Both the position numbers and the translations under genes were made by a program. A stretch of DNA of 37,456 nt from an uncultured Lactobacillus sp. (GTDB lineage: Bacteria > Bacillota > Bacilli > Lactobacillales > Lactobacillaceae): positions 1-37,456 of the forward strand of contig NZ_CANBCQ010000028.1 of the NCBI RefSeq assembly GCF_947367125.1, in the 5' to 3' direction. Position 1 is the stretch's first letter, and each line of letters starts with the position of its first letter. Of this stretch, positions 77 through 12,810 are shown piece by piece. Under the pieces are notes generated by a model. That model was not told the DNA's origin. It was given only the letters and a program-made list of their open reading frames with translations, and did no database searches.

Positions 77-166
77 GGAGACATACTCAAGTGGCTGAAG
101 AGGCGCCCCTGCTAAGGGTGTAGATCGGGTTATTCCGGTGCGAGGGTTCGAATCTCTCTGTCTCCG
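77..166 (+). tRNA. tRNA-Ser (GCT)
   Basis: Acceptor stem GGAGACA/TGTCTCC, anticodon loop CTGCTAA (GCT at 111-113), a long variable arm as expected for serine, and T-loop TTCGAAT. It is the last host gene before the phage integrase. Tyrosine-recombinase phages often use tRNA 3' ends as attB, so attL probably lies between about 140 and 262. The core cannot be fixed because attR is not in the window. Confidence 0.93.
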
Positions 167-3130: not shown

Positions 3131-3478
3131 TTACTCTTTGCCTTGAAAATATCCTTTTAAGTAAGACTTGATAATTTCACGGTCATGATCGGTCATAGGC
3201 TTACCGTCGTAGGAGTGGGCGTTGTCCAAAAGAGCATCTAAGTCTGCGTCAGAAAAGTCAGTAGATGATGAAGGATTATCTGTTTTTCCCATTAGGTAGT
3301 CGTTTGTAACATTGAATAATTTAGACATTTCGGAGATGGTTTCTATATCTGGCTCACGATTGCCATATTCATAGTTTGCATAGGTAGTTAATGGTAAATG
3401 CAGAATCTTTGCAGTATATGTTTTGGTCCAGCCAGCCTTTTTCCTTTCGCTCTCAAGGCGATTACTAAAAGTGCTCAT
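3131..3478 (-). CDS. CI-like repressor, XRE-family HTH
   Basis: 115 residues. The N-terminal HTH_3/XRE domain (~6-62) contains KTYTAKILHLPLTTYANYEY, followed by the typical NVTNDYLMGKTD end of the domain. The C-terminal part is short and acidic, without a LexA-type serine protease domain, so inactivation must come from elsewhere, most simply the ImmA-like protein encoded next. Divergent from the Cro-like gene, with operators in the shared intergenic region. It is probably the lysogeny repressor that also controls its own promoter. Confidence 0.88.
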   Translation of the reverse strand: MSTFSNRLESERKKAGWTKTYTAKILHLPLTTYANYEYGNREPDIETISEMSKLFNVTNDYLMGKTDNPSSSTDFSDADLDALLDNAHSYDGKPMTDHDREIIKSYLKGYFQGKE

Positions 3479-3514
3479 AAGTACCTCACTTTCTGTTTTT
3501 CCTTATTTGAGTAC

Positions 3515-3543
3515 ATTGTAAAGCTATATTTTCGTTTTGAAAA
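3515..3543 (-). promoter_or_regulatory. Candidate leftward (repressor) promoter
   Basis: On the minus strand, TTTTCA (3543-3538) and TACAAT (3520-3515) are separated by 17 nt, about 37 nt upstream of the repressor start. The -35 is weak and lies inside the left arm of the 24-bp palindrome at 3535-3558, so an operator-bound protein would block it. Confidence 0.5.
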
Positions 3544-10311: not shown

Positions 10312-10327
10312 AGGGGAATTGTGGCGA

Positions 10328-10798
10328 ATGGAACGTAAGGACGTAAATGTTTTTCTTAGAAAAGATTTCTGGGGCTATATGTATGAGGGAGGTATCCATC
10401 CTGGTCAACTGACTGGAGCTAGTTTGGATTTAGCCCCTTCGGGGCATAGTAATACCAACACAACTGAAAAGTCCTATGTGGAGACAATGAGCAAGGCAGA
10501 GAGAGCCCAATACTTAGCATTGACAGTGCTAGTAGCGATTAAGGATTGCACTAACTTTGAGTACCACGGCAAACATAGAGCGATCCTTGAAGCCTACTAC
10601 ATTGAAAATCTGAATAACCAACAAGCACGGATGAAAGTTGGTATGACTGAAGGCGAATATAAGACATCAAAGAAGGGTGCATTAAAGGAGTTCATCAAAC
10701 GCTATGATTACTGGCGGGACGCACGCGATTGTCCTGAGCTACCGGCACTTTTCTACCCTCAGAAACCCAAAAAGTTACCAAAAAACGCCCAGAAATAA
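10328..10798 (+). CDS. ArpU-family late transcription regulator
   Basis: 156 residues from ATG 10328; a TTG at 10319 is too close to GAGGGG to be a good start. The C-terminal two thirds match the ArpU/sigma-like family: MSKAERAQYLALTVLVAIKD, then RAILEAYYIENLNNQQARMK and a final helix GALKEFIKRYDYWRDA. ArpU-type proteins control late gene expression and close the early region in many Firmicutes phages. Directly upstream of the structured-RNA region, so it may drive that RNA and/or the packaging operon. Confidence 0.82.
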   Translation: MERKDVNVFLRKDFWGYMYEGGIHPGQLTGASLDLAPSGHSNTNTTEKSYVETMSKAERAQYLALTVLVAIKDCTNFEYHGKHRAILEAYYIENLNNQQARMKVGMTEGEYKTSKKGALKEFIKRYDYWRDARDCPELPALFYPQKPKKLPKNAQK

Positions 10799-10902
10799 AC
10801 CACTTTTCGCCCAAAATTAACCCAAAGTTCGACCACTATTCAACCATGAAAGTAGGTATATTGGTATTGTTGAAAATTTAGGAAAAGCACGAGACCTAGT
10901 TT

Positions 10903-10931
10903 TTGACACGACGTGAATACTAAAGTTCATT
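10903..10931 (+). promoter_or_regulatory. Candidate promoter for the large RNA
   Basis: A consensus TTGACA at 10903-10908, then 17 nt, then TTCATT (10926-10931), a poor -10 that might need an activator such as the ArpU-type protein. Initiation about 7 nt downstream would put the RNA 5' end near 10938, at ACCTCCTT. Confidence 0.35.
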
Positions 10932-10937
10932 AATTAA

Positions 10938-11598
10938 ACCTCCTTTCAGTGTATAGAACAGAATCGTGAAAACTCTAACGAGTAAAAAGACACGTCCGAC
11001 TATTGCAGTTTCGGTGGTGTTGGTGTAAGTCCAACCACGATTCATAGGCTCTCAAGTTGGGAGTCAATTAACAATTCTTATATTTCTTTATTATTTAAAA
11101 ATTGTTGTCTGATAGTGAAGCGGCGTGGAAAACCGCAAATCTACGCTTTATACAGAGATATAGCAGTTCGCTCTACTATGTCTCTTAGCTTGCGAAGACC
11201 CAAGGAAAACGGCGAGCAAGCACGTAAACATTGCTTGTCACCTGTGGCTGTCCTACAGGTGACGTTTATGGGCTAGATGGTACTACATGTTTTCGTCGTC
11301 TTGACATGTAGGTAAGGTTCGATTCCTTGCTGGCTCTTTGATCCTTTCAGGATCACGTGTGGAGTGCGTCAGGGACTTGCTACCATTGTTTTAATTATTA
11401 CTTTTCATTTGACACATCTATGAGTACAGCCGGTAGCAATGCAAGTTTCGAGGCTTGCAGCATTCTTAGAGCAGGCGGAAACTGCTCATTGCTAGTTTGG
11501 AGCACGGTAGATCTCTTTTTTATTAAGCTTGAAAATCTTGCAAGGAAATATATCGTCCATGTTGGACACGTGCGAGGTTCGATTCCTCAACTAGCATT
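10938..11598 (+). ncRNA. Candidate giant structured RNA, GOLLD/ROOL-like
   Basis: The 815-base stretch between ArpU and the ASCH gene has no credible protein gene but many strong stems. GAATCGTG (10961) / CACGATTC (11036) is stacked on GTTGG-TGTAAGT-CCAAC. GGCTCTC/GGGAGTC is at 11047-11065; AACAATT/AATTGTT at 11070-11106; GAGATATAG/CTATGTCTC at about 11154-11183. GTCACCTGT/ACAGGTGAC lies at 11237-11263, CTACATG/CATGTAG at 11283-11311, GATCC/GGATC at 11340-11354, TTGCTACC/GGTAGCAA at 11377-11439, GCAAG/CTTGC at 11441-11458, GAGCAG/CTGCTC at 11469-11487 and GCTAGTT/AACTAGC at 11491-11595. Two GGTTCGATTCC T-arm mimics are included. Size, prophage position and tRNA-like parts resemble the GOLLD and ROOL classes of giant RNAs known from Lactobacillales phages; I cannot assign the class by eye. 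Exact ends are inferred. Confidence 0.65.
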
Positions 11599-11613
11599 AA
11601 GGAGGTAAATTTA

Positions 11614-12015
11614 ATGAAAGCTTTATCCGTGCGTGGCGATTATATTATGGACATGATTGCTGGCAACAAGAAAATTGAGTACCGAACGTGGTCTACTAAG
11701 TATCGTGGACCACTGCTGATGTGTTCAACCACTAAAAAGGTGGCTGGATCAGCTCCTGGATATGCTACATGTGTAGTTAATCTAAAGAGCATTGAGTATG
11801 TAGACTTTGATGAATGCTATTACTGGCACATTGAGCTTCTGGACGTGATTAAGCCTATCCACGTAAAAGGACAGCTTAAGTTGTTCAACGTTGCTGACGA
11901 GCTTATTAAGCCTATCAGCAAAGAAGAGTTTGATAAGGAAGTTGCACCACTAATCTACCAACCTAAGAGAAAAAAGAAACGAAAAAGAATTGAAATTAAT
12001 GGAGTTTTGCATTAA
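11614..12015 (+). CDS. ASCH-domain protein
   Basis: 133 residues. Residues ~1-110 have the ASCH pattern: MKALSVRGDYIMDMIAGNKKIEYRT region, YRGPLLMCST, GYATCVVNLKSIEYVD and a WHIELLDVIKPI strand. The tail is strongly basic (PKRKKKRKRIEI). ASCH domains have a PUA-like beta barrel and are thought to bind RNA; some hydrolyse N4-acetylcytidine. It follows the structured RNA by about 15 bases. Its ribosome site AAGGAGGT (11599-11606) is exactly complementary to the RNA's proposed first 8 nt, so the RNA could control it. Binding of the protein to that RNA is a plausible inference. Confidence 0.8.
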   Translation: MKALSVRGDYIMDMIAGNKKIEYRTWSTKYRGPLLMCSTTKKVAGSAPGYATCVVNLKSIEYVDFDECYYWHIELLDVIKPIHVKGQLKLFNVADELIKPISKEEFDKEVAPLIYQPKRKKKRKRIEINGVLH

Positions 12016-12030
12016 GCATTACTCCTTTTT
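12001..12030 (+). terminator. Terminator overlapping the end of the ASCH gene
   Basis: GGAGTTTTGC (12001-12010) pairs with GCATTACTCC (12016-12025), with two T-T mismatches and loop ATTAA containing the TAA stop; TTTTTG follows. It would end the RNA-ASCH transcription unit ahead of the PP-loop genes, at least in part. Confidence 0.6.
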
Positions 12031-12044
12031 GTTTGGTGAGAATT

Positions 12045-12191
12045 ATGTATAAGACAAAAAGATTCGGTTTGGTTAGTTCTAAGACAGAAAATCAGATACT
12101 AGCCGAGCTTGAAAGAGATTTATCTAAAGAAAGAAGGACCAAGCGTGAGTCTACTGGACGTAATCAAGACACAAAGCCAGATAACCGATAG
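12045..12191 (+). CDS. Possible 48-residue basic protein
   Basis: ATG with GGTGAG upstream. Protein polar and basic (MYKTKRFGLVSSKTENQILA, then ERRTKRESTGRNQDTKPDNR). It overlaps the PP-loop gene start in another frame. Could be real and coupled to that gene or a chance frame; no family recognised. Confidence 0.35.
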   Translation: MYKTKRFGLVSSKTENQILAELERDLSKERRTKRESTGRNQDTKPDNR

Positions 12192-12810
12192 CGTGCTTGT
12201 TTCCTTCAGCATGGGTAAAGACAGCATTGTAACGTTGGACTTGTGCATGAAATATTTTAAGCATGTCCAACCGTTCTTTATGTACTTAGTACCTGGATTG
12301 CAGTTTCAAGATGAGGCGTTAGCAAAGTATGAGAAACACTACGGTGTAGAAATCATTGAAGTGCCTCACTTTGAGGATGCCGATTTTTACCGTTACGGCT
12401 CATTCAGAGACGCTGACTATAGTGTTCCAAGAGTGAAAATTAGAGCTATCTATGAAGCTCTGAGACAAGATACGGGCATTTATTGGATAGCAGGCGGTGA
12501 AAAGATTAACGATTCAATCGTAAGAAGAGCGATGCTGAAACATTCCGGGTCGATTGATGAAAAAAGGGGTCGGTTTTACCCGGTCATGTATTGGACTGAT
12601 AAAGAAATCAAGCAGTACATGAAGATGAACCACCTGTTCTATCCGAAATTCAACCAAGAATTAGGATTTAGCTTTCATAGTTTAGCTGGTAAAGAGTTAT
12701 CAGCAATTAAAAAGATTTATCCAGCTGATTATCGGAGAATTTTGAAGTTTTTTCCTGAAGCTGAAGCTGGAGGTCTACAGTATGAGACGTACAAAAGAGG
12801 TGAAAAATAG
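12145..12810 (+). CDS. PP-loop ATPase, PAPS-reductase-like
   Basis: 221 residues from GTG 12145, which has AAGAAGGA 6 nt upstream; TTG at 12109 would add 12 residues but has a poor site. The PP-loop motif SFSMGKDS (~19-26) binds ATP alpha-phosphates in adenylation chemistry; later hallmarks are YWIAGGEKINDSIVRRAM and PVMYWTDKEIKQYM. The catalytic C-terminal cysteine motif of true PAPS reductases is absent, so sulfate assimilation is unlikely. Phage relatives are typically paired with a ParB-like protein near the terminase, as here (13857-14606). A role in nucleic-acid modification is possible but unproven. Confidence 0.8.
   Translation: MSLLDVIKTQSQITDSVLVSFSMGKDSIVTLDLCMKYFKHVQPFFMYLVPGLQFQDEALAKYEKHYGVEIIEVPHFEDADFYRYGSFRDADYSVPRVKIRAIYEALRQDTGIYWIAGGEKINDSIVRRAMLKHSGSIDEKRGRFYPVMYWTDKEIKQYMKMNHLFYPKFNQELGFSFHSLAGKELSAIKKIYPADYRRILKFFPEAEAGGLQYETYKRGEK

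Follow-up and report, generated by a model that had tools for sequence, protein, structure and literature searches.

The DNA analysed here, a 37,456-nucleotide contig of an uncultured Lactobacillus sp. (NZ_CANBCQ010000028.1; hereafter the window), appears to encode a large structured phage RNA that most likely belongs to a family different from GOLLD and ROOL, in a niche similar to theirs. We give about an even chance (roughly 0.5) to the reading that it represents a new family of late-operon leader RNAs, which would be transcribed under ArpU control and cut at tRNA-like modules, and whose core would act on tRNA or the translation machinery in a role like that of ROOL or GOLLD. The preliminary description of this DNA had proposed a giant RNA of the GOLLD/ROOL kind. 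The large structured phage RNA is upheld by covariation across relatives; membership of GOLLD or ROOL is not, since neither model matches. The Infernal check thus gave no GOLLD or ROOL match, and compensatory changes across relatives were nevertheless present.

Locus and coding potential

In the window, an ArpU-type gene is followed by the structured RNA, an ASCH gene and the terminase genes (Table 1). Genes for PAPS-reductase-like and ParB-like proteins, the small and large terminase subunits and the portal lie 3' of the ASCH gene, and the families of the flanking genes place the element in a phage. An ASCH gene, or a gene of the same phrog, is also found 3' of the RNA in the related loci L017, L010-L012 and L027, while another gene follows the RNA in L008. 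The structured, apparently non-coding stretch extends over about 10868-11600. Its limits had earlier been drawn at 10938 and 11598; a structured stretch of about 660 nt is indeed present there, and the start is corrected, the conserved leader beginning near 10868.

As had been claimed, the region appears to be free of credible protein frames. The sole open reading frame of at least 60 aa (11357-11608, 83 aa) lacks conservation at the protein level: relative to L010 it carries 11 substitutions, 9 non-synonymous and 2 synonymous by a simple count. Stops soon interrupt the frame in L008 and L027; L010 and L011 keep it open, and L017 does so for 45 codons. The fold of the ~660-nt stretch has a minimum free energy of -197.9, against a shuffle mean of -176.6 (z -3.47; 0 of 20 shuffles as good). 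Together, the open reading frame count and the fold energy support a structured non-coding stretch.

Table 1. Features of the RNA and its immediate surroundings, in window coordinates
Feature	Position	Strand	Basis and remarks
ArpU-type late transcription activator gene (phrog_248)	10319..10798	+	phrog_248, E 7.8e-20
~11-bp spaced ACCCAAAAA-like repeats, possible activator sites	10756..10850	+	by eye
TATATT, possible -10 of a late promoter	10857..10862	+	conserved with the following TGTYGAAAA in 6 aligned relatives
5' leader hairpin (TGTTGAAAA / TTTTTGACA)	10868..10908	+	pairs in window, L017, L008, L010, L027; strands hand-picked; no two-sided changes
ACCUCCUUU, anti-Shine-Dalgarno-like	10938..10946	+	complementary to ASCH ribosome-binding site at 11599-11606
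TLS1 core	10961..11043	+	covariation; model R1, 107.2 bits (window among the model's own sequences)
TLS1 closing stem	10961-68/11036-43	+	structure of MAFFT alignment A2, up to 8 bp
TLS1 D-like hairpin	10972-75/10980-83	+	4 bp
TLS1 middle arm	10996-11001/11007-14	+	near-invariant sequence
TLS1 T-like arm	11019-23/11031-35	+	5-bp stem, 7-nt loop, directly joined to closing stem
Hairpin H2	11047..11065	+	5/7 positions with two-sided change among group A/B; strands hand-picked
TLSx, acceptor plus T minihelix with T-loop-like tip	11154..11185	+	window, L017, L008; strands hand-picked
Probable kink-turn, GCUUGC-GAA-GA / GA-GCAAGC	11188..11221	+	sequence rule with 2-bp non-canonical stem
Hairpin H5	11237..11263	+	window, L017, L008; strands hand-picked
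TLS2: acceptor, long arm, T arm, no clear D arm; mascRNA-like	11270..11336	+	strict descriptor; alignment A4; 19.3 bits to RF01684, below gathering
GATCC/GGATC hairpin directly 3' of TLS2	11340..11354	+	in 6 aligned group A/B sequences; pairing checked in 5
TLS2b: closing stem, long arm, 8-nt T-like loop	11362..11465	+	window, L008, L010, L011; strands hand-picked
TLS3, tRNA-like module, sequence replaced among relatives	11490..11596	+	relaxed descriptor only; 17.5 bits to RF01852, below gathering
ASCH-domain protein gene, probably co-transcribed with the RNA	11614..12015	+	PF04266, E 2.7e-07

The TLS1 core

The family loci have in common a core of about 83 nt, TLS1, which is no tRNA by Rfam. 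Its structure was examined in alignment A2 (MAFFT, 10 sequences), from which L008, L010 and L011, all present in A1, were left out, the last two being misaligned; L012 is in none of the alignments. Pairing is maintained in 90.7% of 227 cells, and 13 of the 23 pairs show two-sided changes. Such changes occupy 37 cells versus 12.7 in shuffles, the covariation score was reached by 0 of 500 shuffles, and slid controls for the same structure were only 30.8-40.4% paired. The tally of further pair types does not favour the structure, as it was reached by 408 of 500 shuffles in A2 and by 28 of 500 in a 15-sequence set. RNAalifold applied to A2 recovered the four TLS1 helices of Table 1; its closing stem has 4 pairs, its middle arm is longer, and 9 of its 23 pairs are two-sided. 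The middle arm is invariant in A2, so the covariation counts say nothing on that arm; by eye, the middle arm of L026 has a different sequence and can still form a helix. In the 15-sequence set, the alignment of which was fitted to the model, 92.4% of 327 cells are paired and 15 of 23 pairs are two-sided, and L008, L026, L027, L042 and L043, members from later searches, keep the TLS1 pairing. The TLS1 of L010-L012 scores 30.7-31.9 bits with model R1.

tRNA-like modules and embedded tRNAs

Several tRNA-like modules accompany TLS1. They were sought with a strict descriptor, in which a 7-bp acceptor stem is joined to a 5-bp T stem bearing a tRNA-like 7-nt loop. The tRNA-like arms reported earlier are recovered in part: TLS1 and TLS2 were found by this descriptor, with 0 matches in 100 shuffles of the element, and TLS3 by a relaxed rule only, which gives many background matches on both strands. 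Elsewhere in the window the strict descriptor matched only the tRNA-Ser at 77-165 (+ strand), and nothing on the - strand. Among 15 elements, with L041 standing in for L027 and L018 left out, it found 25 modules, whereas 100 shuffles averaged 0.00-0.01 per element; the L008 and L005 elements had none of the 25. Across 15 longer loci, strict matches sit on tRNAs or within the module arrays. Six of the 25 modules are ARAGORN tRNA calls, and one more, TLS0 of L015, was called tRNA-Val. The modules frequently lack D or anticodon arms, and TLS2 of L008 consists of little beyond acceptor and T arm.

True tRNAs are also embedded in the RNA of many relatives. ARAGORN called them in 9 of the 16 family loci: tRNA-Tyr in L002, L019 and L042, tRNA-Arg in L003 and L018, tRNA-Met in L005, tRNA-Trp in L015 and L016, and a tRNA with no amino acid assigned in L009. 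It called none in the window, L008, L010, L026, L027 or the element of L017; L043 has a tRNA-Arg about 1.1 kb further on, beyond a terminator-like site.

TLS0, an upstream module that the window lacks, pairs in 99.2% of 126 cells in seven relatives, with 7 of 18 pairs two-sided; in shuffle controls its pair count was reached by 8 of 500 and its further pair types by 500 of 500. In L014 (702-2417), TLS0 and TLS1 are about 1.5 kb apart, apparently owing to an insertion within the RNA region. At the other end of the RNA, the sequence of TLS3 is wholly different in the window, L017 and L027, and hand-picked strands give an acceptor plus T arm each time; the L. helveticus phages (L010) carry a truncated TLS3. 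By alignment, TLS2b is not present in L017 or L027. Over all hand-picked helix strands 435 of 444 cells pair, a figure that is no test of structure since the strands were chosen by hand.

The stretch at 11188-11221 is a probable kink-turn, in which a 3-nt loop and tandem G-A pairs would separate two stems. The sequence rule with a 2-bp non-canonical stem is matched in 7 of 15 elements (window, L017, L008, L010, L009, L015 and L043), with a background of 5 matches in 73,342 bases; requiring a 3-bp non-canonical stem leaves 5 of 15 elements, the window not among them, versus 1 match in the same background. Near 10938, ACCTCCTTT is conserved in all 6 aligned group A/B sequences and retained in L008, and could pair with the ribosome-binding site of the ASCH gene. 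ACCUCCUUU, at the same place, resembles the tail of 16S rRNA; a longer 16S tail pattern is absent from the window's assembly.

Relatives in Lactobacillus and its phages

Sixteen family loci, including the window, were obtained when duplicates were merged and three L. helveticus phages were counted as one. These are the window, L002 (with L013 and L020), L003, L005 (with L014 and L021), L008, L009, L010 (with L011 and L012), L015, L016, L017, L018, L019, L026, L027 (with L041), L042 and L043. Where the host is known it is Lactobacillus, including L. gigeriorum and L. hamsteri; the remaining loci are partly IMG/VR contigs. A BLAST search of 50,697 phage records with the window element returned the L. 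helveticus phages CV244, CR191 and T280, with 31% query coverage in the 3' part, and these have the order activator, RNA, ASCH gene, methyltransferase, terminase. The L027 and L017 elements found the same three phages only, those of L009 and L016 found none, and that of L019 matched 16 records through its tRNA-Tyr part. A plasmid search gave no match.

At E <= 0.01, model R1 matched 14 of 75 genomes of the genus, seven with a TLS1 RNA and seven with an FMN riboswitch. The window's own genome holds a second, distinct copy of the family (G000:C1:69403-69487; L009, L052), with four strict tRNA-like modules besides TLS1. In wider searches, run with stricter filters that lose weak matches on genomes drawn from larger groups, FMN riboswitches were the sole additions by R1 in 397 genomes of the family, and model R2 found nothing new in 395 genomes of the order. 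Several candidates were discarded. L006 and L007 (BLAST identities of 86% over 35 nt and 91% over 32 nt) have no RNA core by eye. The R1 matches L037, L018:9663, L003:1315, L043:3869, L009:1971 and L015:2705 fall on ARAGORN tRNA or tRNA-like calls near the same cores; the L018:9663 and L003:1315 rows are in alignment A3 and were left out of A5. Weak R1 matches (L043:382, L013:411 and L018:9339; 17.5-19 bits) were not used. No description of the TLS1 RNA family was found among the matches listed in the open-access PMC literature, as represented by titles and the openings of abstracts.

Comparison with known RNA families

Over the whole window, Rfam 15 at gathering thresholds gave only two tRNAs, both at the window start. 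A cmscan of 10800-11700 with permissive filters and E <= 10 gave two matches only, both below gathering: mascRNA-menRNA (RF01684) at 11270-11336, at 19.3 bits against a family threshold of 42.5 that is therefore not reached, and tRNA-Sec (RF01852) at 11489-11597, at 17.5 bits against 47. Neither Rfam (RF00005, a full cloverleaf, gathering 29 bits) nor ARAGORN placed a tRNA inside 10938-11600. Unlike the MALAT1 mascRNA and the MEN beta tRNA-like RNA, the module matched here scores below gathering, belongs to a bacterial phage and stands in a row of several.

Within 10800-11700 there was likewise no match at E <= 10 to ROOL (RF03087, gathering 99.1 bits) or to GOLLD (RF02032, gathering 150 bits; a model with no positive control here), and ten relative loci had neither at E <= 0.5. 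The ROOL model test works, since a ROOL in the same genome (G000:C33:2419-3032) scored 153.8 bits, and at gathering that locus, L051, was the only one of 14 matched by ROOL. GOLLD gave 0 matches in 150 related genomes, among which there was no positive control. ROOL is a large phage RNA often near tRNA islands, according to passages of PMC12286853, and the ROOL of the window's genome also follows a phrog_248 gene and lies among tRNAs and tRNA-like modules. GOLLD, in the same passages, is phage-encoded, sometimes with tRNAs in its linker, and reportedly rises during lysis. ROOL differs in that its model spans 574 positions, against an 83-nt core with changeable modules here, and does not match; from GOLLD the window RNA is set apart by its lack of a match to the Rfam model, for which there was no positive control.

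Another likeness concerns the FMN riboswitch (RF00050). Ten R1 matches (L029-L035 and L038-L040) were rejected, all ten being FMN riboswitches that match the TLS1 model at full length with 27.4-31.7 bits. By eye, the order of hairpins, a CGGUGG motif and a T-loop arm are similar; the window TLS1, in contrast, has no FMN match at E <= 10. We take the likeness as a shared use of T-loop arms, and convergence is likely.

Activator, possible promoter and terminators

A phrog_248 gene lies directly upstream in 15 of 15 loci tested, the window included, and ends 98-289 nt before TLS1; in L014 (the same as L005) an ArpU-like gene precedes TLS0, by eye. A sigma-70 scan found no promoter at 10857..10862, which would fit an activator-dependent promoter. 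The repeats in the gap between activator gene and leader, which differ in each phage, are possible activator binding sites. In L010 (2340-2430), TCAACGA-like repeats with a spacing of ~11 bp were seen by eye in this gap.

The terminator earlier placed downstream of the RNA was not recovered: no + strand site was found at 10600-12200, and a second scan gave a T-arm hairpin only. Scans of the 16 loci placed a terminator 3' of the RNA in nine (L003, L005, L052, L015, L016, L018, L019, L008 and L043), and in L017, L010 and L027 one coincides with the ASCH gene end or closely follows it. No clear terminator was seen in the window, L002, L026 or L042 by scanning, partly by eye.

Proposed role and alternatives

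From where the RNA lies and from the character of the RinA/ArpU family, we suggest that ArpU activates this leader of the packaging operon at a late stage of the phage cycle. Host RNase P and 3' tRNA-processing enzymes would recognise and cut the acceptor/T-arm modules, a step proposed because of the acceptor/T design and the true tRNAs in the same RNA of relatives. Cutting would free the tRNAs where present and define where the core RNA ends, much in the way that the 3' end of MALAT1 is set by the tRNA-like mascRNA. The mature core, with TLS1 and the kink-turn, might then accumulate and act on tRNA or the translation machinery in late infection, filling the role that ROOL or GOLLD has in other phages. 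That the core acts on translation is our guess from the GOLLD analogy, passages of PMC12286853 stating that ribosomes bound GOLLD in pull-downs and that its expression went up during lysis.

Counted in favour of this late-leader reading are the covariation of TLS1 and TLS0, the strict modules, the embedded tRNAs, the upstream activator, the terminators, the second genome copy, the mascRNA-like match and the ROOL of the same genome after a phrog_248 gene. Counted against it are the lack of a tRNA in the window element, TLS2 and TLS3 scores below Rfam gathering, the further-pair-type shuffles, the TLS0 pair count reached by 8 of 500, the truncation of TLS3, the invariant middle arm, the presence of tRNAs in the flanks covered of only two of seven ROOL loci (L051 and L050; five without) and the want of a clear terminator in four loci. 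A bolder version, somewhat less likely than not, would see a class of giant phage RNAs in which tRNA-like modules are set, like Lego, on the TLS1 core: these RNAs would be driven by the late activator, would be cut out and capped by means of interchangeable tRNAs and tRNA mimics, and would stand in for ROOL and GOLLD in Lactobacillus phages.

Other explanations draw on the same observations. The RNA could act in cis as an attenuator or antitermination leader controlling read-through into the packaging genes, as its position between a probable late promoter and the terminase region and the terminator that follows it in 9 of 16 loci would allow; yet embedded true tRNAs suggest that the RNA is itself a product, and the order and number of modules vary, so that we think this unlikely. 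That very variability, as an arms race would give, together with several acceptor/T modules devoid of proper anticodon arms, would suit a decoy role towards tRNA-targeting host enzymes or defence nucleases, but TLS1, the most conserved part, is the least tRNA-like, and the idea seems rather improbable.

The missing D or anticodon arms may also be taken as signs of decay, in an array of phage tRNAs turning into pseudogenes within an RNA devoid of function; the truncated TLS3 of L010 and the modules to which ARAGORN assigns no amino acid point the same way. Against such decay stand the two-sided compensatory changes in TLS1 and TLS0 and the retention in 16 loci of TLS1, no tRNA by Rfam, while most else changes, and we regard it as very unlikely. 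Least of all do we favour a very divergent GOLLD or ROOL, with a core too far changed for the Rfam models to recognise. It has on its side the phage location, the similar size, the tRNAs embedded in relatives and, in passages of PMC12286853, the variable 5' region of GOLLD and a linker sometimes carrying tRNAs. However, neither the window at E <= 10 nor ten relatives at E <= 0.5 gave a match (the GOLLD model being without positive control), L051 alone of 14 loci matched ROOL at gathering, and what is conserved here is a cloverleaf-like core of 83 nt.

The functions of GOLLD, ROOL and similar large phage RNAs are described as poorly understood in passages of PMC12286853, which also count as ROOL the L. 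salivarius lncRNA that parts of PMC5643018 describe as very abundant and without clear phenotype. Another late-leader family with interchangeable tRNAs and tRNA-like modules points to a job in tRNA processing or translation late in infection, and its occurrence in the isolated L. helveticus phages CV244, CR191 and T280 should make expression and processing testable. According to parts of PMC10686824, CBASS senses a structured RNA derived from the terminase genes of staphylococcal phages, which gives a further motive for studying the function of late phage RNAs.

Neighbouring arrays in ROOL loci and other phages

In L051 (G000:C33, 1307-3690), ROOL follows the phrog_248 gene together with tRNA-Gln, tRNA-Asp, tRNA-Trp and tRNA-like modules, and the downstream genes were read as terminase subunits by eye. 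A module at 3463-3521 of this locus is a tRNA by Rfam (37.5 bits) and not by ARAGORN; by eye its anticodon arm is missing. L050 has acceptor plus T minihelices of 47-48 nt (1440-1487 and 2265-2311) near another ROOL RNA and four tRNAs.

A phage BLAST search with L018 gave 5 records, among them Lj928 and KC5a, matched in the stretch before the terminase genes. Both hold tRNA-like modules, though neither has a match to TLS1. Such arrays may therefore be wider than TLS1, as the array of Lj928 without a TLS1 match suggests. In Lj928 (NC_005354.1, 12774-13816; L056), an annotated activator gene is followed by about 1 kb with tRNA-Glu and tRNA-like minihelices, and the start of its leader is similar (ATTGTCGGAAAG).
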